DNA from: Cognaticolwellia mytili
GTDB lineage: Bacteria; Pseudomonadota; Gammaproteobacteria; Enterobacterales; Alteromonadaceae
Length of the DNA stretch: 64,000 nucleotides
Assembly: GCF_002104475.1 (NCBI RefSeq)
Contig: NZ_NBOF01000002.1
Location: forward strand, 496,001-560,000
Direction of reading: 5' to 3'
Shown: piece by piece, positions 27,972 through 48,829 of the stretch
Layout: each line of letters opens with the position of its first letter
How positions within the stretch are numbered: position 1 is the first letter of the stretch
Program-made: the position numbers and the translations under genes
Notes under the pieces: model-generated
The model's input: the letters and a program-made list of their open reading frames with translations, nothing else
What the model was told of the DNA's origin: nothing
The model's database searches: none

Positions 27972-29438
27972 TCAGCTATTTTTTTGTAGGCTGTATTTAC
28001 GCATTTTTTCAACTAGCGTTGTCCTGCGCATACCTAACAATTCAGCAGAACGTGCGACAACCCAGTCATTTTTATCTAGCGCTTGATTAATTAATGCGAC
28101 TTCTAAATCTGCTAAATACTCTTTCAAATTTAGTCCCTCTGCAGGTAATACATCTACAGCAGCATTATTATTTACTGACGATTCATTCTCAGATGATTCA
28201 TCGTCTTCGTCATATTCAAAGCCAGAAAAAAGTTCATTAATCGCTTCGCGTTCTTGTAGCTCCTCAGGGTATTCAGGCTGAAATTCTTCAACATCAATAT
28301 GGCGATATTTTAATGGTAATTGTCCAACATTAACTACTTGATCCGAATACATAATAATCATACGTTCAATTAGGTTAGACAACTCGCGAACATTACCTGC
28401 CCACGGGTGCTCTTTTAATGATTCAATAGCTTTATCAGTAAAACGTACCGATTTTCCTTGCTCCGAAGAGAAACGAGAAATCAGTTCTTGCAATAACAAA
28501 GGAATATCTTCTTTACGTTCCCTTAATGCAGGCGTTTCAATAGGAAATACATTTAACCGGTAGTACAAGTCTTCACGAAATTGGTTCGTTTTGATCATAT
28601 CTTCTAAGTGCTGATGCGTAGCTGCGACAATACGTACATTAGCTTTAAGGCTTTTTGCCCCTCCTACACGTTCAAATGTGCGTTCTTGCAATACACGCAA
28701 TAATTTTACTTGCATCGGTTGTGGCATGTCGCCTATCTCATCAAGAAATAAGGTACCACCTTCCGCCATTTCAAAACGACCTTTACGGGTTGAAATGGCA
28801 CCAGTAAAAGCCCCCTTCTCATGGCCGAACAATTCACTTTCAAGTAAATCTGGCGGAATAGCGCCACAGTTAACCGGTACAAAAGGCGCTTTGTGACGAT
28901 CAGACAAGTTATGAATGTTTCGTGCAACGACTTCTTTACCTGTACCCGATTCACCTAAAATCAAGACATTAGCAGCGGTACCGGCCACTTGTTCGATCAA
29001 AAAACGTACTTGTTGCATTGGCGCACTGGTGCCAACTAAAGAGCGAAATAAAGGATTCGGACCACTAACACTGCGCTTTGAGGGTAAATTGTTATGGTAT
29101 TGATGGCTATTATGTATTAGCTCAACTAATTGAGCATAATTGAGTGGTGTCGACAACTCACCAACAATATTTGCATAACCTTTAATGGTTTGTTTATCTA
29201 CAACATCATGATAAATAAATGGACAAGTAGGATTAGAAAGTATTATTCCTTGTAATTTAGTAGAAATATTACCGCTTAGGATAATTGTCAAAATGTCAGG
29301 AACTTCAGCTAAATGCTTATCGACTTCATCTTCAGGAAAAACAAAAAAATGTTCGCCAACAAAGGCTAAAACAGTTTCTATTTGATGACGTCTTGCGGCG
29401 TCATTATCGACGACTAGAATATGTTTTTGACCTTGCAT
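27972..29438 (-). CDS. flrA: Master flagellar regulator FlrA (FleQ family)
   Basis: FlrA is the top activator of the sigma-54 flagellar cascade and is inhibited by c-di-GMP and FlhG in relatives. The N-terminal receiver-like domain lacks the phospho-acceptor: the equivalent segment is LTIILSGNI, with Ser near position 55, as in FleQ. The AAA+ domain has Walker A GESGTGKE (162-169) and GAFTGA (209-214). A Fis-type HTH ([19 protein letters not shown]) is C-terminal, after an acidic linker. Length is 488. It is divergent from the flagellinolysin gene. Confidence 0.97.
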
Positions 29439-29610: not shown

Positions 29611-29637
29611 TAAAGAAAAATAAAGAACAACCGATAA
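29611..29637 (+). promoter_or_regulatory. Sigma-28 promoter for the flagellinolysin gene
   Basis: TAAAG at 29611-29615 and CCGATAA at 29631-29637 are separated by 15 nt, exactly the FliA consensus. The start should be near 29644, some 37 nt before the chosen ATG. Confidence 0.85.
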
Positions 29638-29680: not shown

Positions 29681-31441
29681 ATGAACAGCATACTGACCAA
29701 TAGCACAAACTTATTTTTACAGCGTCAACTTAGCAGTAATTCCAACGGAATATCTGTTACCTTCACTCGTTTGTCTTCTGGTATGCGTATTAATTCAGCC
29801 GCTGATGATGCTGCTGGCCTACAAATATCGAATAGACTAACTTCACAAGTTAACGGACTTTCTGTTGCCCAGCGTAATGCCAACGACGGAATTTCTCTTG
29901 CACAAACAACTGAGGGCGCATTAGAAGAAGTCACAAATATACTATTTAGAATGCGCGACCTCTCTTTACAAGCTGGGAATGGCGCATTGTCAGCTGAAGA
30001 TAAAAATGCACTAAATAAAGAAAGCGAACAGTTAAAGCAAGAGTTAACCAGAATAAATGAAACAACAACCTTTGGTGGAAATAAGGTTTTTGATCAAACA
30101 GACCGTTTAGGTTTAGGCGGCGCAAATGAAGCAGAACGTAATATTTTAGGTGTATTACGAAGTGGCGTTTTAGCAGAGTCTGAAGACATTATTCAAAATG
30201 TGCTCGGTTTATCCGGTGATGGTGCAAAAATGAAAATTGACCTTGAGAATGTCGATGGTGCTGGCGGTAAATTAGCCTCTGTATCATATCTTGCGCCCGC
30301 AGGCTCTGAGCTAGTAATGACAATTGATTTAGATGATTTTTCTACTTTAGATTCCAGCAAAATCAAATCACTAAAGTCGACTATTTTACATGAGATGACA
30401 CACGCTGTGATGGCAAACCAAATGAACTTATCTGCAACGCCCACTTGGTTTGTGGAAGGAACAGCTGAAGCGGTCAGTGGCGCTGATGATAGGGTAGCAG
30501 CTGATGTTGCAGCCTTAGGTGGTATTGGGGCAATTAAAACTGAATTAAATAGTATATTCACTAGCACTGCAGGACTTCCCGCTACGCCAACTAGCCTTCA
30601 AGTAGCCGGAGTGTATTCTGGTGGCTATATCACTATGCGTTATTTAGAAGAGCAAGTAGGTGAAGCTGGCATTAAAGATATTATGACAAGTTTATCTGCA
30701 GGTAATACTTTTGACGCTTCCCTTGCTGCACAAGGCACTTTTGCCAATAACGCGGCCTTACAAACCACATTAATGGCTGGTACAACATTTGAAGACTTTG
30801 TGACAGCGAACATTAATACTGGCAATACCGACAATGGGGCTTTTGGTGGTTTAGATGCCGCAGGAGGTGCTAGCCGAGAAGAAACGATTGTTGGCGCTAG
30901 CAGCGCTAAAACGACCGCAAATTTTGATAGTTATTTTGTTAGTGGTGATAATAATGCAACCAACACTGATTTTGGTTCAGGCAATAATTGGGACCCAACA
31001 AGCTTTAATGAAGTTGCCCTAGAAGATTACAGTACATCTGTGAGCATTAGTGGGAAAACAACATCTTTTCAAATAGGTGCAGACGCAAACCAAACGCTAA
31101 ATATCAAAGTTGCTGGTTTTTCTAGCGATAATCTTGGTTTAGATGCACTAGATTTAAAAGATGATTATCAGCTTGCAATAGGCACGATAGATAGCGCATT
31201 ACAGTTTGTTGACAACCAACGTTCGCATTTGGGCGCTTTCGTCAACAGACTCGAGCACACAATAAGTAATCTTAATAATATACAAACTAATGTAACGGCC
31301 AGCCGTTCACGTATACAAGATACCGATTATGCTCAAGAGACAGCAACGTTAGTTTCTCAACAAATAAAAGCGCAAGCAACTACTGCATTGGCAAGCCAGA
31401 GTCAATCGATACCCGAAAGAATGCTGCAATTACTCGGCTAA
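29681..31441 (+). CDS. Proteolytic flagellin (flagellinolysin type) with inserted HExxH metallopeptidase domain
   Basis: Both filament-building ends are those of a flagellin: the N-terminal D0/D1 half ([36 protein letters not shown]) and the C-terminal D1/D0 half ([20 protein letters not shown]). Between them, replacing the variable surface domain, is a domain with the zinc motif HEMTH followed 18 residues later by [10 protein letters not shown]. That is the HExxH-N-E arrangement of gluzincins and of the published flagellinolysin family. In frame numbering from the upstream ATG at 29666 the ligands are H242, H246 and E264, with catalytic E243; subtract 5 from the chosen start. The ATG at 29681 ([10 protein letters not shown]) aligns with the [10 protein letters not shown] start of the other flagellins. 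It should be exported, assembled and proteolytic at the filament surface. It lies divergent from flrA and is followed by a 95-residue unknown, fliS and a FliT-like gene. Confidence 0.93.
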
Positions 31442-31508
31442 GCCGTTATTCTTGCCAGTATTAATATGTGCAGTCAATCCTCTGACAGGATAAATGGCAC
31501 GATTCATG

Positions 31509-31533
31509 AATACCTAGAAAACTTAGGTATTTT
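31509..31533 (+). terminator. Weak terminator or attenuator after the flagellinolysin
   Basis: AATACCTA (31509-31516) and TAGGTATT (31524-31531) form a perfect 8-bp stem with a 7-nt loop, followed by a short TT. The stem is AT-rich and the T tract is poor, so read-through into the next three genes is likely. It may set their lower expression. Confidence 0.5.
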
Positions 31534-31553
31534 AAATATGATAGGACAGATAA

Positions 31554-31841
31554 ATGTTAATATTAAATGGTAGTGCTGAATGTATCGCTGAAAGCAATGA
31601 ACAAACACTAGGAAATAGATATGCTTTTAATATGTTTTCAAGCAATGATAATTTAGATGAACAACTTGCTGAAATCGAGCAATATTTGGTTAGCCGAGGT
31701 TGGGATAACATAGAGATTACTGAAAATGGCCTTATTGACAATATTGAAGGTATTCAACATGCAACATTAATAAGCGCCTTTAAAAAAGCACAGAGTGAGG
31801 GTTTCTCTGTTGTTATCAATAATACGCTTGAACTAAAGTAA
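31554..31841 (+). CDS. Unknown 95-residue protein downstream of the flagellinolysin
   Basis: I do not recognise the family. The 95 residues are acidic, without signal peptide or membrane segment. They look like a small alpha/beta fold: a strand at the start, a helix (NDNLDEQLAEIEQYLVSRGW), strands, then a second helix (HATLISAFKKAQSEGF) and a final strand (SVVINNTLEL). An AGGA ribosome-binding site lies 8 nt before the ATG. Its place between a protease flagellin and fliS suggests a cytoplasmic partner, such as an inhibitor keeping the protease inactive before export, or a chaperone. That is inference from position only. Confidence 0.8.
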   Translation: MLILNGSAECIAESNEQTLGNRYAFNMFSSNDNLDEQLAEIEQYLVSRGWDNIEITENGLIDNIEGIQHATLISAFKKAQSEGFSVVINNTLELK

Positions 31842-31879: not shown

Positions 31880-32278
31880 ATGGCTCATATATCGTTAAAG
31901 AAATATCAACAAACAGAAATGGGCAACGCAGGCGAAGCCTCCCCATATCGCCTAGTCGCGTTACTGTTTCAAAAACTGTTAGATAACATAGCAACCGCTA
32001 AAGGTGCTATCGCGCAAAAAAATTATGCTAAAAAAGGTTCTGAGCTATCCAATGCAATTGCCATTATTGGTGTATTAGAATCTTCTCTTGATTTTGAACA
32101 AGGTGGAGAAATATCAAAGAATTTATCTGATCTCTACCTATTTTGTTCTGAAAAATTACTTGAAGCGAGTACCGATAATGATATTGATAAACTTAATGAT
32201 GTGGCTCAAGTATTGATTCCAATAAAATCAGGCTGGGATGCTATCCCTATTGAAAATCAAACACAGGTCAGTTTCTAG
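31880..32278 (+). CDS. fliS: Flagellin export chaperone FliS
   Basis: FliS binds the C-terminal end of flagellin and prevents early polymerisation. The 132 residues match the family: LKKYQQTEMGNAGEASPYRLVALLFQKLLDNI at the N-terminus (key part SPYRLVALLFQKLLDNI), then four helices including GGEISKNLSDLYLFCSEKLLEAS. A GGAG ribosome-binding site lies 6 nt before the ATG. In relatives fliS usually follows fliD. Here it stands on the other strand, after the flagellinolysin, and is the only fliS in the window. Confidence 0.95.
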   Translation: MAHISLKKYQQTEMGNAGEASPYRLVALLFQKLLDNIATAKGAIAQKNYAKKGSELSNAIAIIGVLESSLDFEQGGEISKNLSDLYLFCSEKLLEASTDNDIDKLNDVAQVLIPIKSGWDAIPIENQTQVSF

Positions 32279-32637
32279 TGATTGACAGTGTGCAATCTTG
32301 CCTTTTAGCTATTAATAGCTTATCAAAACAATTGTTATCTCAATTAGAAGATAATAATAGTGAAGAGAGCCAGCAGAGCATCGTAACCAATGAAGAAAGT
32401 CAATTAACTGGCGAGCTGCTAGCAAATATAGCTGCAGAGCGTCAGTCTCTTATCGCCGAATTGTTTAAAGTTTACACACAAAAGCAACTTAGCACAGAGC
32501 TCCCTCTAGTTAATGAAATGGCTTCACTTGATCAGCAATTAACAGAAAAAGCACAACTAAGTAAACAAGCTATCGCTGAGAAACTTTTAAAGTTAAAGGG
32601 TCGCAAGAAAGTTACCAAATTATACCAAAAGTATTAA
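32278..32637 (+). CDS. FliT-like flagellar chaperone
   Basis: A 119-residue, almost entirely helical, charged protein. Its GTG start shares one base with the fliS stop codon, so it is translationally coupled. FliT, the FliD chaperone, commonly follows fliS and is a small helical protein poorly conserved in sequence, so the call rests on position, size and helical character. The Lys/Arg-rich C-terminus (LKLKGRKKVTKLYQKY) is notable. A different small chaperone for the protease flagellin is possible. Confidence 0.65.
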   Translation: MIDSVQSCLLAINSLSKQLLSQLEDNNSEESQQSIVTNEESQLTGELLANIAAERQSLIAELFKVYTQKQLSTELPLVNEMASLDQQLTEKAQLSKQAIAEKLLKLKGRKKVTKLYQKY

Positions 32638-35430
<2,793 letters not shown>

Positions 35431-36066
35431 CAATCTGCATGGGTATATATTGGAAAATGTCATTCACTAAAAGAGGTTGAAATGGCCACAGGGTATATAT
35501 GTTGGCATAGGGTTATAGAGGATAATCAATACTAGATATTGGACGCAACGTTTAGAGAAAATGAATGTCAGATTTATACAGGTGATGGAGCAATAAATTT
35601 ATCGATAATCAGTCATAGGTTACACTAAAAGAGCATTACTAATTTCACATAAATTCAATATAAAAATGACTTTTTCTGATATTCAATCAACAGAAATTTT
35701 TAAGATAAAGCATAAATATTTATAAAAAACACTAAACTTGATAATTATTCAATCGAATCGCAATATCAATACCATTTGCAAGACTATTACCAAGGTATAC
35801 GCCATTGAAAGAAAATAATTAGTGTCACAGGTAAAATGCAACACGCAAGTTGGGATACTAGTTTTAGGGCATAAATTTTATTTCGCGAAAAATCAATCAA
35901 AACATAATATCGCCTTACAACAATTCCACTCACACACAAAAAAAATTGAAAACCAGCCGTTAAAAGATATTAAACTTGATTTGATAAAAATTGAAATGAA
36001 GACAGCAATATCTTTCGCTATAATATATTTATTAATATTTTTCGATCTATTTAGGACCATTACTTT
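35431..36066. other. Intergenic region between pseC and the methyltransferase gene
   Basis: About 640 bp, AT-rich. The decamer GGGTATATAT occurs twice (35441 and 35491 area). A TATAAT box near 36019-36024 may promote the next gene; I see no good -35 at 17 bp. An open frame at 35822-36109 was considered and rejected. Confidence 0.5.
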
Positions 36067-37128
36067 ATGTTTGAATACCCAGAGTTGGCTGAATCTCGTT
36101 TGGCACTAGAGACACAAGATGAAATTTTTAAACCATCTTCTTTTTGGGAGAATGCCTCAGCAGAAATCGTTGAGGAGCTTTACCGTGAAGGTATTGAAAA
36201 ATTTAGATCATTGCCTTTACCTCTTTCATTTTTCGCTCCAACTTATGGTTCTCCAGGAGGAGGGTTTAGTCAAGAACAGGTAAAAGGATTGAAAAATTGG
36301 TTACTTGAAAATCACCCAAATGCTAAAAAACCTCAATTAGGCTTGGGGCTGTTTCTTGATGGACTTACTCAAGCACTTAGTGACTATAGAGTTTTAAAAG
36401 CATCTGATGATATCCGTTCTTTACCTGAGCTTCACCAATTTAGTGAAAGCAAAGAAGGAGATCCTATCGAGCACTTTGAGTTCGAAGGCAGATGGTTTAG
36501 CCGCTCTTCTTTAAACTATCTATTAGGGTTAGCTTTTTTGAAAAAGCATTTAAATGGCGACGTTCCAAGAGTAGTATTAGAAATTGGTGGTGGATTTGGA
36601 AGCTTGGGCGAGGTGCTAGCTTCTTCAAATATTGAAGGACTCAAATATATAGATGTGGATATCCCCCCAACAAGTTATATAGCCCAATATTATTTAAGTC
36701 AGGTTTTAGGTGAGGAGAACGTGAGCTCTTATCATAAAACAAAAGATCTAAAAATTATTAAGATTGAAGATTTACCACAGGCGTCTGTCTTCTGTTCATG
36801 GCAAATTGAAATGTTACAAGGTTCCGTTGACTTGTTTGTTAATTTTATTTCGTTCCAAGAAATGGAGCCAACGATAGTTCAAAATTATTGTAATCATGTT
36901 TCACGCTTAAATGCAAAATGGGTATTGTTACGGAATATGCGTGAAGGAAAACAAATTAAGACTAATGAAAATCCAGTAGGCGTTAAGACACCCATAAAAT
37001 CAGATGATTACAACTCAATGTTACCAAATTATGAATTAGTAGATTCCAGTATTATTCCTTACGGTTATGAAACAGTTGACGAGTTCAATTCAGAGCTTTT
37101 ATTATTCAAACGTAAAGCTAAAACGTAA
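36067..37128 (+). CDS. Putative sugar O-methyltransferase
   Basis: The 353-residue protein has an AdoMet-binding motif near residue 167 (VVLEIGGGFGSLGEVLA) and later an acidic strand end (LKYIDVDIPP), the layout of class I methyltransferases. The N-terminal half has the APTYGSPGGGFS segment seen in the putative sugar O-methyltransferase group found in surface-polysaccharide clusters. It probably methylates pseudaminic acid or another flagellar glycan sugar. It stands alone on plus, after a 636-bp gap, and converges with the minus-strand tailoring genes. Confidence 0.8.
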   Translation: MFEYPELAESRLALETQDEIFKPSSFWENASAEIVEELYREGIEKFRSLPLPLSFFAPTYGSPGGGFSQEQVKGLKNWLLENHPNAKKPQLGLGLFLDGLTQALSDYRVLKASDDIRSLPELHQFSESKEGDPIEHFEFEGRWFSRSSLNYLLGLAFLKKHLNGDVPRVVLEIGGGFGSLGEVLASSNIEGLKYIDVDIPPTSYIAQYYLSQVLGEENVSSYHKTKDLKIIKIEDLPQASVFCSWQIEMLQGSVDLFVNFISFQEMEPTIVQNYCNHVSRLNAKWVLLRNMREGKQIKTNENPVGVKTPIKSDDYNSMLPNYELVDSSIIPYGYETVDEFNSELLLFKRKAKT

Positions 37129-37589
37129 GGATTAAGAACAGGATGAAATACTTTCATCCTGTGACGTTACCACTTGACTAGCCCATTTAACTATAAAAAA
37201 TGATAAAACGTAAAAATATTCAAATTAGATGAGCAAGCCGCTGGTTTATTGATCTTCAATAATAGATAGCCATTGCTCTTGGCTACTCATCACTCTCATT
37301 ATTACCGCTTAAGAGGAAATAATGTCTTTGAAATCAAAGATAATACAGCTTTAGTAAACTACACGCTCTCCATTAAAAGTATTTCATCTACTTTCAAAAT
37401 TTTAGCGTTTATCAGCCCAGCTTTTAAAAAATATTTTGGAGGTTTTGTTTATAAGAATAAGCAATCGCAAGACCGCTTATTATGGGTAATTCAATTAACA
37501 GTTTCCAATCGGCTAATCTTGGTCGCTTCATCGTTCCCCCCAAAAAGTAAATCAATTTGCTTTTTGATTGTTAAGAGTGCGTATTATGA
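37129..37589. other. Convergent intergenic region
   Basis: It separates the plus-strand methyltransferase from the minus-strand WbqC-like gene. A strong hairpin lies at 37138-37162. A 35-codon minus frame (37424-37531) with GGGGGG just upstream and an overlapping plus frame (37273-37653) are present; neither is convincing. Confidence 0.5.
37138..37162 (+). terminator. Hairpin terminator after the methyltransferase gene
   Basis: ACAGGATGAAA and TTTCATCCTGT form a perfect 11-bp stem with a 3-nt loop, 10 bp after the stop codon. There is no clear T tract after it, so it may act as a 3'-end stabiliser as much as an intrinsic terminator. Confidence 0.65.
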
Positions 37590-38327
37590 CTATAGTTGTG
37601 CTGAGGTTAAGTTTGTCCCACGACCACTTCTAATAATATCCATAGAGCGCTGAAAGCCTTCATAAAAAAGTAAATCTATAACACTCATGTATGGTTCAAA
37701 CACCCCATAATTTTGAGTATACTCCGGGTGAGTATAATTTTGATATTGCAAATTTATATCATGTTCTGCGAATATTCCACCGGATTTTTCCGATTCGATA
37801 TATACCGATGAGCCTTTAGGAGAAAGGTAATTAGAACACTTCAATTCTTGGCATATATTAACCAGATTGCCATTACGCCCTCCATCTAAGGTAGCAAGAG
37901 AAGAGCTCAACTGTACATCAGTTTTAATTTCTAGCTTGCTTACTACCGCTAGAATAATTTCAATAGTTAATTCTGATAGTAGCAAATATTCTCGATGTCT
38001 AAAGATCTCTTCAATAAAACTATAAACCTCCTTAAAGAATGGTGCCTTTTGGTAGTTGTAAAATAATGTTTTTAGTAACTTAGATATCCATGGCCTGGAG
38101 TTATTTATTTCTACTTGATTAATTCTTTCAGCTAACGCATGTTTTTTCAGTGGCACCGTTAGCCATGTAATACCATTTGCAGTTTTTATGCGGTTTCTAC
38201 ACTGCCAACTTTGCTTGGTAAACTGAACATCATCATAAAATATAAATTTATCGGCCGTATCAATTAAATCAAAATAACCCACCCAAGGAATAAAGGTGGG
38301 CTGCATTATCGAACAAGTACCAATCAC
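37590..38327 (-). CDS. WbqC-like family protein
   Basis: The N-terminus MIGTCSIMQPTFIPWVGYFD and following FIFYDDVQFTKQSWQCRNRI are the hallmark of the WbqC family (245 residues, usual size). Members lie in O-antigen and flagellar-glycan clusters. Their reaction is not established to my knowledge; a role in transferring an acyl or amino-acid group to a sugar is often presumed. The GTG start overlaps the stop of the acyltransferase gene by 4 bp. It is the last gene of the maf-pse operon. Confidence 0.88.
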   Translation of the reverse strand: MIGTCSIMQPTFIPWVGYFDLIDTADKFIFYDDVQFTKQSWQCRNRIKTANGITWLTVPLKKHALAERINQVEINNSRPWISKLLKTLFYNYQKAPFFKEVYSFIEEIFRHREYLLLSELTIEIILAVVSKLEIKTDVQLSSSLATLDGGRNGNLVNICQELKCSNYLSPKGSSVYIESEKSGGIFAEHDINLQYQNYTHPEYTQNYGVFEPYMSVIDLLFYEGFQRSMDIIRSGRGTNLTSAQL

Positions 38328-38857
38328 CGCTCTCTTTCGCCTACACGTTTGGCGGGGCTACCGATATAAATACCCCATGGTTCACAGTCCTTTCCTACAA
38401 AACTACCTGCCCCGATAACACAACCTTCGCCTATTTTAACCGGCATAATTGTACTATTGGCACCAATATAAACATCATTACCAACTTCAAGTACACCGCC
38501 TAAAATTTCACTTTGCTCGTCTCCCATCCCGTCAACCATTTTTAGACCTGGCGTTTTGTGACTATAGGTTTGTGAGAGAAAAACTGTGCCCGGTCCAGTA
38601 GATACACGATCACCAATAATAGTTAGCCCTCCTCCCCATATAACGGTATGTGGCTGAATATCACTATACTCTCCTATTTTGACCCCTTCACCAGCAAAGA
38701 TGAATGCAAAATCCCTTACTTTCGCATTTGACGCAATCTCAACAGTATGTGGAAACGCAATCTTAGCCATTGGGTATATAGTTACATTTTCACCACACGA
38801 CTTTAATTTCGATTTAACATTTTCACCCATCAATTCAATACCATCGATCTCTAACAT
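38324..38857 (-). CDS. Left-handed beta-helix (hexapeptide) acyltransferase
   Basis: The 177-residue protein has rows of hexapeptide repeats (VEIASNAKVRDFAFIFAGEG, then VYIGANSTIMPVKIGEGCVIGAGSFVGKD in part) and ends with the usual IGSPAKRVGER. It probably acetylates an amino or hydroxyl group of a nucleotide sugar. It could replace PseH, the GNAT enzyme of the classical pathway that I do not find here, or act later in tailoring. It lies 9 bp after the epimerase and overlaps the WbqC-like gene by 4 bp. Confidence 0.88.
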   Translation of the reverse strand: MLEIDGIELMGENVKSKLKSCGENVTIYPMAKIAFPHTVEIASNAKVRDFAFIFAGEGVKIGEYSDIQPHTVIWGGGLTIIGDRVSTGPGTVFLSQTYSHKTPGLKMVDGMGDEQSEILGGVLEVGNDVYIGANSTIMPVKIGEGCVIGAGSFVGKDCEPWGIYIGSPAKRVGERER

Positions 38858-38866
38858 AATTTTTCC

Positions 38867-39916
38867 TTATTGATTATATTCATTTATATTAACTTGCCTT
38901 TTATCCACTAAGTGGCTAAATTTTTTAGCGCTAGATTCTTTAATAAAATCAACTAACATATCCTTGAAACTAAATGAAGGTGACCACCCTAACACTTCTT
39001 TTGCTTTACTTATGTCATAATAAAAAGAGTCAATATTATTGCTAATGTCAGGTCTTTTTATCAGTTCTGGCTTATTATTTTGCTCACTAAAAACATCAAT
39101 AATGGTTTCTACTTCTTCCATTAAAGTTAATTTTTTTCCTGACGTTATATTAAAAAGCCCCCTTGCATCTGGATGTTCAATGGCTAAAACAAAAGCATTA
39201 ATTACGTCCTTTATATAAATAATATCTCGACCAACATTAGTATCACCCCAAACCTCTATGGACTCACCAGTAATAGCTTTATCTATAAAGATTTGAAACC
39301 CTGTTTTAATAGGCTTGCCACCTTTAAATATTTCAGTATGTGGTCCATAACCATACACGGGAGGGAGTCTAAACGTAATACACTGGAGATCATGCTGCGT
39401 ATTGTAATATTCAACTAAATCTTGAGCTGCCGTTTCAGAAATACTAAATAAAGTGTACTCAGTATCAAATTTAATTGCACGCCCATCACTTTCTGACAAC
39501 GGCTTATTTGCAGGCCATAAGCCTTGAGTATTCCGATGAGAGCTGCCATAAATGACTTTTCCAACATGACTATTCTTACAATATTTAAGAATATTAAGAG
39601 TACCGATAACATTTACTTGCATGTAGCTTTCAGGATCATCATTTTTATCGCTAACATTTGCTGGCTGATGAGCTGCAAGGTGTACCACTACATCAAAAAA
39701 TTTTCCTTCCAACTTTAGAAAGTCATCCTGCTTAGTAATATCTATATTAATAAATGGAATATTTCGTTCTAGAAAATAATCTTCATTTGAAGCATCAATA
39801 TCTGACGCTACAACGTGATAATTTGAATTCAATAAGGCATCAATTAAGTATGTCCCCATGAATCCAGCAGCACCGAAAACCAACACTCTTTTTTTAGAAA
39901 AGCTACTTTTCATCAT
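38867..39916 (-). CDS. NAD-dependent epimerase/dehydratase (SDR family)
   Basis: A 349-residue extended short-chain dehydrogenase. The cofactor motif is VFGAAGFMGTYL near the N-terminus, and VYGYGPH with DIIYIKDV are typical of nucleotide-sugar epimerases. The canonical YxxxK is not obvious: the expected region reads FDTEYTLFSISETAA, with Ser-Glu instead of a clear YxxxK, so catalysis may differ or be lost. Substrate unknown. It overlaps the preceding beta-propeller gene by 14 bp. Confidence 0.85.
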   Translation of the reverse strand: MMKSSFSKKRVLVFGAAGFMGTYLIDALLNSNYHVVASDIDASNEDYFLERNIPFINIDITKQDDFLKLEGKFFDVVVHLAAHQPANVSDKNDDPESYMQVNVIGTLNILKYCKNSHVGKVIYGSSHRNTQGLWPANKPLSESDGRAIKFDTEYTLFSISETAAQDLVEYYNTQHDLQCITFRLPPVYGYGPHTEIFKGGKPIKTGFQIFIDKAITGESIEVWGDTNVGRDIIYIKDVINAFVLAIEHPDARGLFNITSGKKLTLMEEVETIIDVFSEQNNKPELIKRPDISNNIDSFYYDISKAKEVLGWSPSFSFKDMLVDFIKESSAKKFSHLVDKRQVNINEYNQ

Positions 39917-40838
39917 TATTTTCTTCTAGGACGGCAATCCCGAAGCCTTCACGACCATAGCCATTTCCGGAGTAAAGCATATATGTCTTATCATTATGCC
40001 TAAAGACATTAGGGTAACAAATCATTTCTGAGTCCCAGCCCGACTTTGAAACACTAATACCTACTTTGTGATCTAACCTTGTAAATTGATAGCCGTCTAG
40101 TGACTCTCCGTAGCCCATTTCATAGCCTCCTGCCCCTATAGCGTAGCAGTACCACATTCTGTATAGTCCGTTATCTTTTATAATGCTCGCTCTTGAAACT
40201 CGCGTTTCACGATCATCTTTATAATCAACAGCAACAATACCATCTCTTTTCCAATGAATACCATCAACAGATTCTGCATATTTGATGTTATATCTTGGTA
40301 GCTCTTCAGTTAACCAACAATCTGCAGAGTCATACCACATTCGCCAAATGCCATTTTCAATAATAATGCAAGATATAACCAAAATAGTATAAGGTTCAGC
40401 ATCTGTTCGATCTATAATGGGGGCTCGAGATAGTCGGCTAAATGTCTCACCATTATTTTCACTAATGGCCAATCCTGAAACTTCAGCCGCACGAACTTTT
40501 GAACCTTTGTTCCAGCCCATAAAATAAAAATATTTTTTATCGCCATCATTTACCATACACGTAGGCGAAACACCGTTATCATCAAAGCTCCCTAACTCAC
40601 CAATATCCAATACCGGTGATTCTGATAAGTGCAATATATCTAAGGGGGAATTAATATTAATTTCTACAAAGCCTGTTTTTGAAATGTTATTCACATCTCG
40701 ACCGGAGAAGTAAATACGAAAAACATCTCCCTCAACATGATCTACAGTTGGCAGCATGCCATGTGACGCTACCCAATCAAACTGGCCTTTAGGTTCAAAT
40801 ATTTGTCCTAGTTTTTTCCATGAAAAATTTGCTGACAT
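39903..40838 (-). CDS. Five-bladed beta-propeller glycosidase-like protein
   Basis: The sequence (about 311 residues) has regularly spaced blades with WYS/MWY-type motifs (RIYFSGRD, YFYFMGWNKGSK, IWRMWYDSADCW, LYRMWYCYAIGAGGYEMGYGES, TYMLYSGNGYG), as in GH43/GH32/GH130-like propellers. Such proteins recur in pse/leg-type clusters with unknown role. A TTG at 40853 extends the frame, but I start at the ATG at 40836-40838 (MSANFSWKKLG) with GGGA about 9 nt upstream. There is no signal peptide, so it is cytoplasmic and may act on nucleotide sugars. Confidence 0.8.
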   Translation of the reverse strand: MSANFSWKKLGQIFEPKGQFDWVASHGMLPTVDHVEGDVFRIYFSGRDVNNISKTGFVEININSPLDILHLSESPVLDIGELGSFDDNGVSPTCMVNDGDKKYFYFMGWNKGSKVRAAEVSGLAISENNGETFSRLSRAPIIDRTDAEPYTILVISCIIIENGIWRMWYDSADCWLTEELPRYNIKYAESVDGIHWKRDGIVAVDYKDDRETRVSRASIIKDNGLYRMWYCYAIGAGGYEMGYGESLDGYQFTRLDHKVGISVSKSGWDSEMICYPNVFRHNDKTYMLYSGNGYGREGFGIAVLEENNDEK

Positions 40839-40870
40839 TTTATCTATTCCCAACTTATATTTGATTGCTA

Positions 40871-41857
40871 TTAACTTGATAGTATTTCTTGAAGTATTTC
40901 ATTTTTTCCTTCGCCTATTGCCATTCTTTTGATGGCACAATTGTCGCTAAAAATAAAATTTTTATTAACCAATATTTTAGAGATGTTTTTAATATCTTTT
41001 TTGCCCAACGTTGGAAAAACATTTTGGTAAGCCTTTTTTTGCAATTCATTTTGATGAAATCCAACAACCGGTGTTCCAATTACTATCGACTCAAAAAATG
41101 ACAATCCAGGGGAAGCAAAAACAACATCATGCAATGACATCATTTCAGCGACATTTGAAATATTTTGATAAACAGATACATCTGAATTAGATTGATTGCC
41201 ATTAATAACTCGCTCAAGTTCAGCAGTATGTGCAAAACTACTCCCAATAACGAGTGTTACTTGAAAACTCATCGTCATCTTTAATATTTCCATTAATACC
41301 GCTGATGAGAAGTTTGATGGATCAGAGCCTCCAAATATCAGCATTATTTTTCGAACATCTCCAAGAGGAGTTTTTTTAGCTAACCTATAGCGATAAAATT
41401 CCGGGCGTAATATCCAATACTTAGGCCCAAAAAATTCAACCTTTCCAGAACGAGCATCCTTTTTATAAATATTTTTAAAGTTACTCCCAATATCAGCAAG
41501 TAGTGTGACATCAGCGTAATTATTTGCCTCTGTTAAGTTCGTAAAAATAAAAAGCTTCGCCGTTAATAGTTGCTTAATATTTTTTGCTAGCTCAGGAAAC
41601 ACATCGAGCTTATCGAAAATAATACGCTCAGCTTGTCGTTGTACAAGTAAATCCAATATTTCTCGATCATTAGAGCAAAAAGTAACCTCACAACCACTCC
41701 TTTTTAATAGAGATATAACTGAAGGCTCACTTTTAGTGTATAAGTTAATATCAAGCGTCGAATCCTGCTCTAACAAATAATCTATTAGTGTCAACGTTTG
41801 ATAAATATGCCCCAAACCCAATTGATTATTACCATCGGTTATTATATCGATCTTCAT
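40871..41857 (-). CDS. pseG: UDP-sugar hydrolase PseG (GT-B fold)
   Basis: PseG removes UDP from UDP-2,4-diacetamido-trideoxy-altrose before condensation by PseI. The N-terminus DGNNQLGLGHIYQTLTLIDYL carries the family GxGHxxR-like motif, with Tyr-Gln in place of the usual Arg. The C-terminal half has IFGGSDPSNFS and ASPGLSFFESIVIGTP, typical of PseG/MurG-like enzymes. At 328 residues it is normal. It overlaps pseF by 4 bp. The deviation at the Arg is worth checking. Confidence 0.85.
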   Translation of the reverse strand: MKIDIITDGNNQLGLGHIYQTLTLIDYLLEQDSTLDINLYTKSEPSVISLLKRSGCEVTFCSNDREILDLLVQRQAERIIFDKLDVFPELAKNIKQLLTAKLFIFTNLTEANNYADVTLLADIGSNFKNIYKKDARSGKVEFFGPKYWILRPEFYRYRLAKKTPLGDVRKIMLIFGGSDPSNFSSAVLMEILKMTMSFQVTLVIGSSFAHTAELERVINGNQSNSDVSVYQNISNVAEMMSLHDVVFASPGLSFFESIVIGTPVVGFHQNELQKKAYQNVFPTLGKKDIKNISKILVNKNFIFSDNCAIKRMAIGEGKNEILQEILSS

Positions 41858-42555
41858 TTAATCAGCCTCTCTCGGTTACACAGCTGAAATTTCATTTCTG
41901 CTAATAACCAATCTGTTTCATTATCAATATCTTGAGATTCAATTTCAGGTATTTCAATTGCCCCACAGTTAGTGGTTATAATATCCCCTGTCTCAAGGTA
42001 TTGATTAACAGAAAACCAATAAAACTGCCCCGAATCATAAAATGAAGGTTCAACGTCTTGTGTTCTAGCGTTCCTATATTCAGGCCAGTTCAATGCTAAT
42101 TTTCCATCAGTAAGCTTATAACTTCTCTGTATTGGCGTTGAAAACTGAACAACTGGAAACACTGAATCAAAATTATTACTAACTAAACTTCTAAGTCCAT
42201 CCTTTAATTTTTTTGGCGTCACTAGTGGCGCTGCAGGATATAAGCAACAAGCAATATCAAAATTTTTCCCTATAGCTTTGTAGGTTTGTATAACTTCAGA
42301 TAGAACATCTGCGGTGGTTGAAAAGTCATCAGAATTTTTTTTACTTCTCATAAATGGAACAATAGCACCAAAAGCCTTTGCAATATTAGCAATCTCTTCA
42401 CTATCAGTTGAGACCATGACCTCATCAAACAACTCTGACTTTATTGCCGCTTCAATAGAATAGGCAATAATAGGCTTCCCAAGAAAATCTTTAATATTCT
42501 TCTTTGGTATTCTTTTACTTCCACCTCTTGCTGGGATTATACAAATAGCACTCAT
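41854..42555 (-). CDS. pseF: CMP-pseudaminate cytidylyltransferase PseF
   Basis: PseF activates pseudaminic acid with CTP. The nucleotide-binding motif IIPARGGSKRIPKKNI at the N-terminus, VSTDSEEIA and the catalytic-region segment YDSGQFYWF define the acylneuraminate cytidylyltransferase family. The 233-residue length fits PseF. It lies between pseI (56 bp) and pseG (overlapping), which supports pseudaminate over neuraminate as substrate. Confidence 0.94.
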   Translation of the reverse strand: MSAICIIPARGGSKRIPKKNIKDFLGKPIIAYSIEAAIKSELFDEVMVSTDSEEIANIAKAFGAIVPFMRSKKNSDDFSTTADVLSEVIQTYKAIGKNFDIACCLYPAAPLVTPKKLKDGLRSLVSNNFDSVFPVVQFSTPIQRSYKLTDGKLALNWPEYRNARTQDVEPSFYDSGQFYWFSVNQYLETGDIITTNCGAIEIPEIESQDIDNETDWLLAEMKFQLCNRERLIK

Positions 42556-42611
42556 AATTTTTAACGGTAGTCCGTAAATAGATAATTGAATATTAATGAA
42601 GTCTGCATTTT

Positions 42612-43685
42612 CTAACTCACATCATCTGAAAATTTAAAGTCTATAAATTTTTTTGACAATGGAGTTCCTCTACAAACATCGGCATTACAAGTTTTCCCAA
42701 GTAGTTCGTCATAATACTTGGGTAGCAAACCATAGCCAGGTCGAATACTTCTTATATTTTGTGCTGTAAATTTCTCACCTTTCGCTATATCTTCAACTAT
42801 ATATAAAGATCTGCGTGCTTTGATGTGACTAAATTCACCTGATTCTTTTTCAAAAACTTCATCACCAAGAGCAAGCCACGCTGATTTGGTACTAGAACAC
42901 AGCTCTGTGAGTTCTTTAGGCTCTAATGAAAAGCTATCATCAGGTCCTCCACCAGATCTATCAAGTGTTACATGTTTTTCAATAACACATGCGCCCATTG
43001 CAACACTTGTAATCGCGGTGGTGTTATCTAAAGTATGATCAGATAAACCAGTAATAACATCAAACTTTTCTGCAAGGTATGGAATTAGTTTTAATTTGTA
43101 GTCTTCTGGTGAAGCCGGATACTCACTTACACATCTCAGTACAATTAATTCACTACAACCATTATCTCTTGCAGTATTTATTGCATCAGATATTTCATTT
43201 TCTGTCGCCATTCCAGTTGAGATAATCATTGGTTTTCCGCTTTTTGCGACATAAGCAATTAACGGTAAATCTATTAGCTCAAAGGATGCTATTTTATAAG
43301 CAGGAGCATCTAATGTTTGTAATAAATCAACAGCAGAGAAGTCAAAAGGGGAACTAAATATTGTTATGCCTAACTCTTTAGCTTTTTCAAAAAGAGGCTT
43401 ATGCCACTCCCAAGGCATATGAGCCTCTTTGTATAGCTGGTATAACGTCTTCCCTCCCCACATTTCCCCTTTTATTTGAAAGTCTTCAGAGTCGCAATCA
43501 ATCGTAATAGTATCTTGCGTATAAGTTTGAAGTTTAATAGCGTCTGCACCGGCCTTTTTTGCTGCTTCCATAATTTTAAAGGCGCGCTCAATATCCCCAT
43601 TATGGTTAGCGGATAGCTCTGCAATGATATATGGAGGATAATCCTTACCTATTTTCCGATCATCAATAATAATAAATTCATTCAC
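42612..43685 (-). CDS. pseI: Pseudaminic acid synthase PseI
   Basis: PseI condenses the 6-deoxy-AltdiNAc sugar with phosphoenolpyruvate. The N-terminal NeuB barrel shows YIIAELSANHNGDIERA and ADAIKLQTYTQDTITI. The ELSANHN and QTYT motifs separate PseI from sialic-acid synthases. IEKHVTLDRSGGGPDDSFSL follows (seen in part). The C-terminal SAF antifreeze-like domain (ARRSLYIVEDIAKGE, SIRPGYGLLPKYY) is complete. At 357 residues it is full length. Confidence 0.96.
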   Translation of the reverse strand: MNEFIIIDDRKIGKDYPPYIIAELSANHNGDIERAFKIMEAAKKAGADAIKLQTYTQDTITIDCDSEDFQIKGEMWGGKTLYQLYKEAHMPWEWHKPLFEKAKELGITIFSSPFDFSAVDLLQTLDAPAYKIASFELIDLPLIAYVAKSGKPMIISTGMATENEISDAINTARDNGCSELIVLRCVSEYPASPEDYKLKLIPYLAEKFDVITGLSDHTLDNTTAITSVAMGACVIEKHVTLDRSGGGPDDSFSLEPKELTELCSSTKSAWLALGDEVFEKESGEFSHIKARRSLYIVEDIAKGEKFTAQNIRSIRPGYGLLPKYYDELLGKTCNADVCRGTPLSKKFIDFKFSDDVS

Positions 43686-43779
43686 AATAATTTACCGATA
43701 GAATATTCACTGTAGCCTAGCATTCTTCTTCCCAATCTCAATTTTTATAATTACAAATCATAAACTTAAATCGTGTGCC

Positions 43780-45795
43780 CTAAACTTTCGACGGCATATT
43801 ATATCGCTCAGTTAATTCTTGATAAGTTACATAAAAGTGTTCCTTCATAATAGTAATAGCATCGTTAATATAAATATTTCTTTTATCTAAATTATTATAA
43901 TAATATGAGTTACTCATAATGACTGCGTGAAAATATTTTAAGCTCCCTTGCAAAAACAAACCTACAGCGCCTGCACTTTTTGTCAAACTTTTTATTTCTT
44001 TAAACAATGTTTGATATTGTAAAGAAAATAATAGACGTAATTCATCACGTGAACGAATATCTCTATCTGTAATAGCAAAGAGTTTATCTATAATGGACTT
44101 AATATCTCCAAATGATTTTAACGCTAAGGCTTCTATTTCGGAATAACTTAGCTGCTCAGAGCTAAAGGATATTTTTAACAAGTCTGTTAGGAACTCTTTT
44201 TTGCTGATCTTATTTTTAATCACGGGAATTTCATCGAATTCCAAAGGAGTAGTCCCTTTTATGGCGACACCATCTGAGCAGTTAAACGCAGTAACCGACT
44301 TATTTTTATCTAACAATAATTCAATATTTCCTTTTGATTGTTCAAACACCTTAGTGCTATATACCTTCCCACCGAAGTTACCTTTTAGTGTTAGTTCTTT
44401 TTTGAACATATCAAGGGATTCCTTGGTACTATATTTTTCTTCGTCATAATACATACTGTCTTTCGAATGATGGTGCTCTAAGCTCTTAAACCCTAAATCT
44501 GTGCCTATCAAATATATGTTTTTAAAACCTAAAGAAATCATTAATGTTAATGCACAATTAGTTACTGTAGGATTCATCTTGTCAGGCGATTCATATAAAT
44601 CTAACTTATCAAGCTCCTTAACTAAATACCCGCCATAGTCAAATAGTTTATTGATTATTTTTGGTGTTTTAAATTTATTTAGCACTTCATCACAAACAGG
44701 AGCTAAAGCAATAATCTGGATATTTTTTAATTGTTCTTGATTGGGAATGCTTTCAATCCAAGGTAATGTCGTTGATGTTCTTTCCATTTCAATGTGGATA
44801 TCAGGGGTTATACCATTTGCTAACAACGCCCTTAATGATGTGCCACAACTTAAAATTATAAACTCATTTTCTCTTTCTTTAATTATTTTAATTTTATTAT
44901 CTAGTGATGGTCCATTTCCAGCTATAAGAACAGGCCTATTTGGATTTTTATTAACAAAATATTCCTTCTTCATTAACAAAGGAAAGCCCGCTTCAATATT
45001 TGACAGCAAGTGCGAAAAACCAATCACTTCATCTTCCATGAAGCCAAATCCTTGGCTTAATCGATGTCCTATTTCTTGAATTAATGAAATCAATTTCTCG
45101 GTTGTTTCACTTTCATAATGCTTAAATACAAACATTCTAGCGATATTGAAATTACCTATTTCTTTAAGGTAGTCATTTAAGTTATTCAGCGCAGTTTCAG
45201 GTCCAAAGCCAATAGTAATTTTAAATTGCCCAGCCTTTGCAAAGCAATGCTCTATTAATGGTTTTAAATCAATGCAATGTAGCATTGCAAAGAACACTTC
45301 GGGCGATGGTTCAAATAAGAAGAAATTACAAACACGCTTTTGCTTGAATATCTCTTCTATTTGATACCCTAAACCCGATCCAATCATGAACATACAATCA
45401 ATCTGTTCCTCATTCCATGGGTTATTCGGCGTATCATAGAAAGTATCTTTCTTCCTTATTGTATCTAGCTTTTTGAGAGTTCTCTCATGCTCAAAGTTTA
45501 TTTCACTATCTTTTTGAGGAGCAATATCAAAAGTAAAGTAGTTTTGATAGTTTGTATTACTGCAAAAATTATCTACTTGGGATTTTGCAAAGAGTGCAGC
45601 ATCATCATAAACAAACTCTCCATTATTCAATAAATTAGGTTTTCCGTTATTATCAATGGAGATTTCATTTCCAGAGAGTTTATAGGTTTGATAAAACTGA
45701 TGAATTTCAGGGTAATAACATTTCAACGTAGCTAAATTTGACATTAACGTTGCTTGCATTAACATTTTTTGAATAGTATCTGATTGTTCTTCCAT
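43780..45795 (-). CDS. maf: Maf-type flagellin glycosyltransferase (MptE-like/DUF115 domain)
   Basis: Motility accessory factors transfer pseudaminic acid to flagellin Ser/Thr before export. The central MptE-like domain has the hallmark AGNGPSLDNKI (GNGPSLD near residues 293-299 from this start), followed by LSCGTSLRALLANGITPDIHIEMERT in part, and LIGTDLGFKSLEHHH. The N-terminal half has a Maf_N-like region (FMIGSGLGYQIEEIF, FLFEPSPEVF). The frame extends to a TTG at 45807, but the ATG at 45793-45795 has GGGA nearby. It leads the pse operon on minus and has its own sigma-54 promoter. Confidence 0.9.
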   Translation of the reverse strand: MEEQSDTIQKMLMQATLMSNLATLKCYYPEIHQFYQTYKLSGNEISIDNNGKPNLLNNGEFVYDDAALFAKSQVDNFCSNTNYQNYFTFDIAPQKDSEINFEHERTLKKLDTIRKKDTFYDTPNNPWNEEQIDCMFMIGSGLGYQIEEIFKQKRVCNFFLFEPSPEVFFAMLHCIDLKPLIEHCFAKAGQFKITIGFGPETALNNLNDYLKEIGNFNIARMFVFKHYESETTEKLISLIQEIGHRLSQGFGFMEDEVIGFSHLLSNIEAGFPLLMKKEYFVNKNPNRPVLIAGNGPSLDNKIKIIKERENEFIILSCGTSLRALLANGITPDIHIEMERTSTTLPWIESIPNQEQLKNIQIIALAPVCDEVLNKFKTPKIINKLFDYGGYLVKELDKLDLYESPDKMNPTVTNCALTLMISLGFKNIYLIGTDLGFKSLEHHHSKDSMYYDEEKYSTKESLDMFKKELTLKGNFGGKVYSTKVFEQSKGNIELLLDKNKSVTAFNCSDGVAIKGTTPLEFDEIPVIKNKISKKEFLTDLLKISFSSEQLSYSEIEALALKSFGDIKSIIDKLFAITDRDIRSRDELRLLFSLQYQTLFKEIKSLTKSAGAVGLFLQGSLKYFHAVIMSNSYYYNNLDKRNIYINDAITIMKEHFYVTYQELTERYNMPSKV

Positions 45796-46197
45796 CAACG
45801 TTCCCAATTTATAAGTTTTAAATATTATTATTAAGCAATAGCGGCAAGCTGACGTGCATACCCAATTTTAGCGATTGCTAAAGTCCACTATGAAATCAAC
45901 ATTTAGAGTTTTTAAATATATGTTACTTTACACAGATAATACATCAAGCAATAAAAGCGCCAACATTACAAACACTAGTGCCATCAAGTGGAAATAAATC
46001 AACACGATAGTAAGTAGTTTATCAGAAAATATTGAATTCTAATCAAGATTATTTCTTTTAGAAAAAGACTAGAAGTGTGCGTCAAAAAGATAGCACTATG
46101 TAACACTACAGAAAAGGTAAAGATCAATAAATTTAAAACATGACAAGCTTTTTATATTTAAAACAAGTTCACATTAATTTAAATTTTATTATCGATT
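45796..46197. other. Intergenic region between maf and fliD
   Basis: About 400 bp, very AT-rich. It holds the sigma-54 promoter of maf (45946-45964). No convincing terminator for fliD and no gene are seen. Confidence 0.6.
45946..45964 (-). promoter_or_regulatory. Sigma-54 promoter for maf and the pse operon
   Basis: The minus strand reads TTGGCGCTTTTATTGCTT, with exact GG-N10-GC spacing and a perfect TTGCTT. The start would be near 45937, about 140 nt before maf. Confidence 0.75.
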
Positions 46198-48294
46198 TTA
46201 ATTAGATTGCTTAACGACTCCAGGCATATTTGCGAGTTGCTGTGTTATATATGAGCCGGTATTATTAAGTTGAGCAACCAATGAGTCCATCGCATTGTAT
46301 TGAGCAAACAGCCTAGCTTCTAAAGAGGTCATTTTTATGTTGAAAGCCTCTAAATCCGTGTCTAATTTTTTAATTTGTGAGTTTTTACTGCTAACTCTTT
46401 GCTCAATCAGTCCATCTTTACCTGAATAGAAATCAATAAAATCTTTTATACTATTAACAAAACCCGACTTTTCATTTTCACCCAGAAAGAAATTTTGTAC
46501 TTTATCCGGATTAGATTCAATTAAATCATCTAAGGTTTCCTTTTCCAAACTTAGCTCACCTGAGCGCTCAGTACGTATGCCTAAATCAGATAAGCTAAGG
46601 CTTTCTCCATTGCCAATAGCAAATCCTTGCTGAAACTGATTTCTCATTTTACTCATCACACCACGAAGCAGAGAATCTCCAGCTAAGACCCCTGCGCTTT
46701 CAAATTCTCCATCGCTATTGTTACCTGATTTGCCTAATTGCTTACTTAAGTCAACTAAAGCGTTATAGCTAGTAATAAAGGCATTTAAGCCCTCAGCAAT
46801 ATTACTATTATTTTCAGCGATTGAAATTTTACTAAGATCGCCATCAGCAACATCTGCGGCATGTGCTTTATTAGCGGTGATCGTAACACCATCAATGACA
46901 TCTTTAAAAGTATTCGTGCTGTTTGACACTGTGATAGTACCGTCAATCGTAATTTTAGCATCTGTAGGTGCTGTCACTTGTGTCATATAGTCAATATTAG
47001 CTGTTGCGGTTTGATTCGCAGAACTAAATTGTGAGAGGCCCGTCATATCACTGTTGTTTCCATCGCTATCAACAGCCGCGACAGTAATTGCATGGGTATC
47101 ACCTGATAGCCTACTGCTAAAGACCAAATGTTCTCCCGCAGCATCATTGAAAATACTCGCTTTAACAGAACTGTTTTCACTATTTTCATTAATCGCTTTG
47201 ACAATATCGCTCAAATCAGAAAAAGCATCAACAGTGACGTCAAAATCATTACCATTAGAGCTAAATGATAATGTACCGGCACCAGGTGTTTCAGTTGAGG
47301 TAAACCCGTTTACCGATGTTAATTTATTATTGGCGCTAGAAGTTAATTGCGACAAGCCCGTATTATCATTATTGGTCGCAGCTGGAGGAAGGGTCATATT
47401 TACCGATGCAAACTGAGATATTCCTGATGTGTCGCCATTAGCTCCATCATCATCTGCTGCTGTGACTGTAACAGCATTATCCACACCAGGTTTAGTTGCG
47501 TTAAAGACTAAATGCTGGCCCGCGCTATCAGTCACAAGGCTTGCAACAACTGACTTATTCGCTGTACTGTCATTAATAGCTGTTACTATATCCGATAATG
47601 TATCTGTAGCATCTACAGCAATATCAAAATTATTGGTACCAGAGCCAAAAGACAAAGTACCCGAACCCACAGTATCAGTGGCAGTAAAACCGCTTGCTGA
47701 GGTTAATTTATTGCTCGATTCTGCAACCGAAATAGTAATACCATTATCTATCCCTGTAAGCTTACTGTTCAAAACCAAGCGCTGACCTGAAGCTTCAGTA
47801 ATAATAGTGGCACTAACAGAGGAATTATCACTACTATCATTTATTGCATCACGAATATCACTTAAAGTAGCGCTATCAGGTACAGATACATCAAACTCAC
47901 TATCACCCGACTTTATCGAAAGAGTTCCTCCTCCGAGCGTTTCTTTGGCATCAATAGCGGCAGACATTATTTTATGGGAAGTAGCTAATTCTTCAACTTT
48001 TACTGAGTATTTTCCTACCTCAGCATTACTATCAGACGACAAGCTGACAAAATCATCTCTCCCCGAAATAGTACGTTGCTGATATTTATCTATATCTGCT
48101 AAACCATCAAATGAAGACTGCACATCCACGAGTGCTGATTTTAAAGCACCAACTGCTGAGATATCGCTAGTATATGCTCCTTGTTGTCGGGTTACTCTTG
48201 ACTGATAAGGCACTTTTTGCGCATCAACAATTGCATTAACAATGTCAGTCACTTGTAGACCAGAGCCTATGCCGGTAAATGATATTGCAGCCAT
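46198..48294 (-). CDS. fliD: Flagellar cap protein FliD, enlarged
   Basis: FliD caps the filament tip and folds incoming flagellin. The N-terminal part (ISFTGIGSGLQVTDIVNAIV) and the C-terminal D0/D1 (LDTDLEAFNIKMTSLEARLFAQYNAMDSLVAQLN in part) are canonical. The variable middle has three Flagellin_IN-like modules, near residues 122-190, 211-280 and 339-408. Each reads TLSxxSGxxxFDVxVDxxxTLSDIxxAIN. At 698 residues it is about 230 longer than enteric FliD, mainly because of these copies. It lies 17 bp after flaG. Confidence 0.96.
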   Translation of the reverse strand: MAAISFTGIGSGLQVTDIVNAIVDAQKVPYQSRVTRQQGAYTSDISAVGALKSALVDVQSSFDGLADIDKYQQRTISGRDDFVSLSSDSNAEVGKYSVKVEELATSHKIMSAAIDAKETLGGGTLSIKSGDSEFDVSVPDSATLSDIRDAINDSSDNSSVSATIITEASGQRLVLNSKLTGIDNGITISVAESSNKLTSASGFTATDTVGSGTLSFGSGTNNFDIAVDATDTLSDIVTAINDSTANKSVVASLVTDSAGQHLVFNATKPGVDNAVTVTAADDDGANGDTSGISQFASVNMTLPPAATNNDNTGLSQLTSSANNKLTSVNGFTSTETPGAGTLSFSSNGNDFDVTVDAFSDLSDIVKAINENSENSSVKASIFNDAAGEHLVFSSRLSGDTHAITVAAVDSDGNNSDMTGLSQFSSANQTATANIDYMTQVTAPTDAKITIDGTITVSNSTNTFKDVIDGVTITANKAHAADVADGDLSKISIAENNSNIAEGLNAFITSYNALVDLSKQLGKSGNNSDGEFESAGVLAGDSLLRGVMSKMRNQFQQGFAIGNGESLSLSDLGIRTERSGELSLEKETLDDLIESNPDKVQNFFLGENEKSGFVNSIKDFIDFYSGKDGLIEQRVSSKNSQIKKLDTDLEAFNIKMTSLEARLFAQYNAMDSLVAQLNNTGSYITQQLANMPGVVKQSN

Positions 48295-48311
48295 ACTATA
48301 TCCCCTTAAAC

Positions 48312-48722: not shown

Positions 48723-48775
48723 CAGTTCCTCCTTAGTTATCTAATCTTAATACATACCCAGTAGATTAAAAACAC

Positions 48776-48807: not shown

Positions 48808-48829
48808 CACCTAAGCTAGCTTGGTTTCC

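Follow-up and report, generated by a model that had tools for sequence, protein, structure and literature searches.

A putative flagellinolysin gene of Cognaticolwellia mytili beside flrA, in a block of filament genes that looks exchanged

The flagellinolysins, a family of proteolytic flagellins, were described in 2017 by Eckhard et al. (PMC5595980). For the flagellinolysin of C. haemolyticum that paper reports proteolytic activity as well as presence in the filaments. According to PMC7643111, the member from Hylemonella gracilis, FlaMP, requires the addition of calcium and zinc for its activity and cleaves itself; the proteolytic flagellin of Pseudoalteromonas tunicata (UniProt A4C6E0) is named there, too. 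By these two accounts two members of the family are active.

A flagellin of this kind appears to be encoded in the 64,000-nucleotide stretch of the Cognaticolwellia mytili genome that we analysed (the window). The gene at 29681-31441 on the plus strand encodes a protein of 586 amino acids which, judged from its sequence, is a true flagellinolysin and a member of this already known family. The whole protein matched the NCBIfam profile NF033876 (flagellinolysin) with 339 bits at a cut-off of 205. Its N-terminal end (residues 4-140) gave 132.5 bits with Flagellin_N of Pfam (profile positions 1-137 of 139) and its C-terminal end (residues 501-585) 70 bits with Flagellin_C (profile positions 2-86 of 86). 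Compared with the three ordinary flagellins of the same genome, there are 87-88 matches in 136-138 residues at the N-terminal end and 47-48 matches in 84 residues at the C-terminal end. The predicted peptidase insert spans about residues 145-400. It contains the putative catalytic motif HEMTH (residues 237-241, DNA 30389-30403) and a WFVEG motif with Glu259 as predicted third zinc ligand (both motifs within 30389-30457, plus strand). The original prediction of a flagellinolysin, in which a zinc-protease signature is inserted between two intact polymerising ends, is therefore borne out by the profiles and motifs. The Pfam peptidase families Peptidase_MA_2 (28.9 bits, cut-off 32.4) and Peptidase_M9 matched below their cut-offs. 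The pattern HExxH...WF.EG is retained in all 30 proteins of our flagellinolysin tree, a set made up of the window's own protein and its relatives, one of these being a free-standing protease of the genome G121. Among 295 genomes of the order, nine contain a match to NF033876 above the cut-off, counting our genome and G121.

A structure model calculated from 12 aligned sequences was weak (mean pLDDT 54.1), with a better-predicted core reaching means over ten residues of 69-84 at residues 231-260 and of 73-92 at residues 301-380. In this weak model HEMTH and WFVEG are predicted to lie in two successive helices of the core (residues 225-247 and 255-266). Two successive helices bearing these motifs are the arrangement found in gluzincins. 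In fold searches with the model the best 50 matches listed per search were all flagellins, so that the lack of gluzincins in these lists does not speak against such a fold.

The protease of G121 (locus L172, positions 4737-5912 of G121:C16) has 391 amino acids and reaches 238.7 bits with the flagellinolysin model (cut-off 205). No Pfam family was detected in it at E up to 0.001, and flagellin ends were not found. A sigma-28-like sequence, GCCGATAC, is located just upstream of the gene, and its neighbours do not look like flagellar genes. A search of 59 genomes of its genus brought up no other match at E up to 1e-10. Possibly this protease is exported although it is no flagellin.

Pseudoalteromonas tunicata is a marine gammaproteobacterium, as is the host of the window. 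The presence of a proteolytic flagellin (A4C6E0) in a species that also possesses a structural flagellin, as described in PMC7643111, is shared with our genome. With the family of Eckhard et al. (NF033876; PMC5595980) the C. mytili protein shares the flagellin ends and a gluzincin-type insert with HExxH and a distal Glu, and flagellar gene neighbours are reported for that family, too. FlaMP belongs to the same family and is reported to be zinc- and calcium-dependent, but it is encoded beside non-flagellar genes (PMC7643111), whereas our gene is part of a flagellar cluster. Furthermore, our gene differs from the described family in its site between flrA and a group of three genes, X-fliS-fliT, within a block that looks exchanged. 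A literature search yielded no paper joining flagellinolysin with Colwellia.

Transcribed divergently from the flagellinolysin gene, as had been claimed, lies flrA (27972-29438, minus strand), encoding a FleQ-type sigma-54 activator with the domains FleQ, Sigma54_activat and HTH_8; it marks the left boundary and is not itself part of the block proposed to be exchanged. Within the block, X-fliS-fliT is followed at 33272-45807 by genes for sugar-nucleotide and nonulosonate synthesis and for a Maf glycosyltransferase (PseB/PseC-like, NeuB, CTP_transf_3, WbqC, Maf); the family scan of this region left out the proteins at 38324 and 39903. Then follow fliD, flaG and the three ordinary flagellins (46198-53917, minus strand). 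About 17 kb separate these flagellins from the flagellinolysin, in agreement with the statement that it sits apart from them. At the right edge flgL and flgK (54157-57386, minus strand) are again like those of the own genus. The names FlrA/FlrB/FlrC and PseB/PseC are used here in their usual sense.

For the comparison with relatives we denote the window's genus as g1 and two other genera of the family as g11 and g115. Cognaticolwellia sediminilitoris (G366 = L194) probably belongs to g1, Colwellia psychrerythraea GAB14E (G593 = L199) and C. piezophila (G609 = L193) probably to g11, and Colwellia hornerae (G346 = L198) probably to g115. FlrA shows 82-91% identity to its counterparts in 11 genomes of the own genus, 68-72% to those in 19 g11 genomes and 76% to those in three g115 genomes. 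The highest identities of the flagellinolysin were found outside the own genus, namely 83% to G422 (g115) and 78-79% to G408 and G493 (g11). Four others at the same site reach 67-73%, and the two congeners having such a gene only 62-63%; these two carry it elsewhere, after fliT. For X the values are 80% for G422, 63-70% for six of the 20 g11 genomes and 51-58% for the congeners. The X proteins of the other 14 g11 genomes and of two of the three g115 genomes (49-54%) are no closer than those of the congeners. Because the closeness of X is limited to G422 and six g11 genomes, the match is, as far as these identities indicate, one to a cassette type present in some Colwellia and not to the whole genus.

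The neighbourhood was compared in fetched stretches, not whole genomes, of ten relatives, five of them from the own genus. In these stretches the genes from fliE to flrA, to the left, as well as flgL, flgK and the gene adjoining them, to the right, matched the own genus best. FlgL shows 73-79% identity to that of the five congeners but 46-56% to that of the five others. The ordinary flagellins, on the other hand, are 68-73% identical to those of four of the five non-congeners and 53-59%, over the full length, to those of congeners. FliD and the flagellins are nearer to the non-congeners with the exception of G609 (g11), whose proteins are no closer than those of the congeners. FlaG does not discriminate between the own genus and others. 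The same applies to the identities of FliS, which amount to 74-80% for all ten relatives, so that only the FliS tree discriminates. In the stretches of the five congeners there was no match to pseB and pseC, nor to the other glycan and Maf genes of 33272-45807, and for the genes at 36067-40853 a single weak match (37590, in G422) appeared in the stretches of all ten relatives.

The trees point in the same direction. In the flrA tree the three genera are apart and the own genus stands together at 100/99. In the X tree the own protein groups with G422 and six g11 genomes (100/99), in the fliS tree with G422 and five g11 genomes (100/95) and in the fliD tree with three g11 genomes (100/100). The fliD tree contains further mixing, with G535 placed with G574 (g11) and G366 inside a mostly g11 group, indicating that single genes may move too and that FliD may move alone. 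The frameshifted gene of G644, present in two pieces, was not used for the flagellinolysin tree, and L183 and L208 were left out of A4. The flagellinolysin tree unites the own protein with G422, G408 and G493 (100/100); G346, G478, G403 and G609 form a weaker neighbour group (84/76), and all eight stand together at 99/99.

Signs of decay were also detected. In L215 (Colwellia maritima) a deletion relic is found between flrA and X, with pieces matching flagellinolysin residues 114-155 and 519-586, and in the metagenome-assembled genome G644 the flagellinolysin copy is broken into two frames. From relics and trees we infer that the flagellinolysin predates the divergence of the two cassette types, that it moves along with its cassette and that it can disappear again. 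The block thus reads as an exchanged filament cassette with the flagellinolysin as optional cargo. The case for exchange is weakened because flaG, most X genes of g11 and the genes of G609 give no support.

Alternatively the gene might have been inherited vertically at its site in the own genus and have disappeared from most congeners, no cassette having been exchanged. The site is common to several genera, and the Colwellia maritima relic indicates that loss occurs there. However, for X, FliD and the flagellinolysin some genomes of other genera come nearer than the congeners do, which is not the case for flrA and flgL, and in the two gene-bearing congeners the gene is found after fliT, at 62-63% identity. 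Vertical inheritance therefore appears unlikely to us, and exchange of a filament cassette remains the preferred reading.

Promoter-like elements were searched with the sigma-28 and sigma-54 consensus sequences. A predicted sigma-28-type element, TAAAGAAA-N11-ACCGATAA, with 1 mismatch to the pattern, lies at 29611-29637 (plus strand), 43 nucleotides before the start of the flagellinolysin gene. With a score of 11.9 it lies above the 99% level (11.2) obtained from 500 mononucleotide shuffles of the same stretch of 250 nucleotides, among which the largest score was 12.2. The corresponding genes of 20 of 29 relatives also score above 11.2, the level given by the shuffles of the window's sequence; nine do not, for some of which the script had chosen a start codon too far upstream. 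The idea of an own sigma-28 promoter for this gene is thus supported by a predicted site. Among the three ordinary flagellins (48830-53917) a clear sigma-28-type site within 300 nucleotides was seen only for the gene at 48830-50260.

It had further been suggested that the protease gene leads an operon with the genes downstream. This is doubtful, since the 112-nucleotide gap between it and X holds a sigma-54-type -24/-12 element of its own, TGGCAC-N7-GA (31495-31509, plus strand). The pattern TGGCAY-N7-G[CA] occurs 53-130 nucleotides before X in 35 of 35 X-fliS loci, our own included, with or without a flagellinolysin gene. From mononucleotide shuffles 0.12 such loci would be expected, a rough yardstick given this type of shuffle and the relatedness of the 35 loci. 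The -12 GA instead of the usual GC is shared by our element with those of L130, L132, L137, L144, L145 and L153. The simplest reading of these elements would be two units, an early one comprising X-fliS-fliT and a late one comprising the flagellinolysin gene.

Upstream of X, sigma-28-type sites were also seen in four loci lacking a flagellinolysin gene (L103, L104, L109 and L153). They might be left over from a gene since lost, or might be independent promoters; searched at E up to 1, the stretches between flrA and X in these loci showed no match to flagellinolysin. In our sequence the gap between the flagellinolysin gene and X folds into a hairpin with T's behind it (z of -2.1 for the whole 112 nucleotides), which was set aside, as the relatives folded showed no clear counterpart.

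X (31554-31841, plus strand) is a protein of 95 amino acids for which Pfam, NCBIfam and PHROGs contained no match at E up to 1, and the 16 proteins of its alignment gave no Pfam match better than E 0.0065. Its predicted structure (pLDDT 87.6) has the order strand, strand, helix, strand, helix, strand. No Foldseek match was obtained at E up to 0.001, the best being NE1680 (2hfq) at E 0.02. The best VIA score of the model, a Z of 6.2 against one chain from an archaeal ribosome, is at the level which unrelated models usually reach, and the best sequence match to a solved structure had an E of 0.13.

Downstream of X the expected fliS gene was confirmed at 31880-32278 (plus strand), as its product matched PF02561 with 112 bits and TIGR00208 with 66.5 bits, both above the cut-offs. 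The gene at 32278-32637 (plus strand, GTG start) encodes a protein of 119 amino acids that had been called FliT-like. Its position after fliS agrees with this, but a family match is lacking: searches of Pfam, NCBIfam and PHROGs detected no family at E up to 1. Among solved structures its best sequence match was at E 1.2. We keep fliT as the presumed name, given for position and synteny only.

Together, X, FliS and FliT had been suggested to form a dedicated system for silencing the protease, exporting it and inserting it among the normal subunits. Our genome, however, contains five matches to Flagellin_N (the three ordinary flagellins, the flagellinolysin and FlgL) and a single match to FliS. 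This FliS has to serve all flagellins, and a separate FliS for the protease beside a general one was not found in the genome. By its families (PF02561, TIGR00208) the protein is thus a FliS, the only one found, and not a chaperone specific to the protease. Eight of nine relatives searched, i.e. eight with a flagellinolysin and G121 with its free-standing protease, possess one FliS as well, and only G302 has two.

In a sample of 395 genomes of the family X was found in 67 (E up to 0.001) and the peptidase insert in 31 (E up to 1e-8), with 17 genomes containing both. This co-occurrence is above chance (17/50/14/314, Fisher p 5e-7, the genomes being related). Relatedness and linkage may be behind it, although it is not zero evidence for a partnership. 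Loci with long flanks were fetched for 60 of the 66 other genomes with X (missing are G315, G343, G369, G637, G659 and G160), and the script, which calls genes solely by phmmer matches to proteins of the window, did not recover X in one of those fetched, G641 (L157). X adjoins fliS in 34 of the 60 loci, and 24 of these 34 belong to genomes in which a search at E up to 1e-8 did not detect the insert. Directly upstream of X lies the flagellinolysin gene in eight of the 34 (in seven with flrA beyond it; the eighth, L083, is on a short contig without flrA) and flrA in 25, two of which (L101 and L102) have the flagellinolysin gene after fliT; one locus is cut. In a second set of 36 loci, named ones and largely from the same genomes, the gene lies upstream of X in ten and after fliT in two, and is present as a deletion relic in one. 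In the other 23 no flagellinolysin was seen within the locus, one of them being cut upstream and two having no fliS.

On this distribution we reject X as an inhibitor specific to flagellinolysin, and no result of the analysis points to a silencing role of X. Partner genes confined to protease-bearing genomes were not found. X and the flagellinolysin gene are, nevertheless, adjacent on the same strand, they co-occur beyond chance, and in their trees the proteins of the window fall into matching groups. Against a dedicated system stand the single FliS, the 24 X-fliS loci from genomes in which no insert was detected, the failure to find X in 14 of the 31 genomes with insert, the own promoter-like element before X-fliS in every locus and 16 of 59 X loci in which no other reference gene was recognised nearby. 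We consider such a system highly improbable. Rather, X is, on the grounds of this distribution, part of the fliS unit and no partner reserved for the protease.

The 16 loci with X standing alone are L112, L113, L115, L118, L119, L123, L124, L126, L127, L135, L139, L142, L146, L151, L154 and L155. In five others (L121, L125, L129, L133 and L134) X lies between flrA and flrB, encoded on the opposite strand. Together these loci suggest that the role of the X family may be wider.

A peptidase that shows no catalysis once in the filament and serves only as a bulky surface domain would be compatible with the free variation of outer flagellin domains, but in view of the motif retained in every protein of the tree and of the two members reported to be active (PMC5595980 and PMC7643111) we see hardly any chance for this reading.

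Taken together, we favour an explanation that combines a flagellinolysin as minor flagellin, a general FliS, a separate unit with X and an exchanged cassette, and give the whole of it a probability of about 75%. The outer domain of this minor flagellin would be a zinc-dependent and probably also calcium-dependent peptidase. It would be made late, from its own sigma-28 promoter. Flagellins are exported in an unfolded state. Accordingly, the flagellar export apparatus would export the flagellinolysin chain unfolded with the help of the single general FliS, and the protein would be built in among the ordinary flagellins with the peptidase facing outward. A private silencing partner would not be needed, since the chain would be unfolded in the channel and the H. 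gracilis member needs added calcium and zinc (PMC7643111), which may keep the peptidase silent in the cell. X-fliS-fliT would form a separate unit with a sigma-54-type promoter and serve all flagellins. The flagellinolysin gene would have arrived as optional cargo of a filament cassette of roughly 24 kb, presumably in one event and in this direction, by exchange with Colwellia-like bacteria, the breakpoints lying in the gap between flrA and the flagellinolysin gene and in that between the last flagellin and flgL.

The less expected features of this locus are the proposed cassette exchange and the family of X, and a literature search found no paper obviously treating filament cassette exchange. 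We hold it for somewhat more probable than not, both that in Colwellia and its relatives the filament is swapped between genera as one flrA-to-flgL cassette (chaperones, X, glycan genes, cap and flagellins) with flagellinolysin as optional cargo, and that X constitutes a separate family of flagellar proteins, residing in the fliS operon under sigma-54 control. X would then represent a small protein family of the fliS operon that is absent from the family libraries searched. A known enzyme flagellin is now placed in relatives of Colwellia, with general flagellar genes as its neighbours. The cassette reading, if true, suggests that protease flagellins are scattered across species together with the filament genes and may be lost again.
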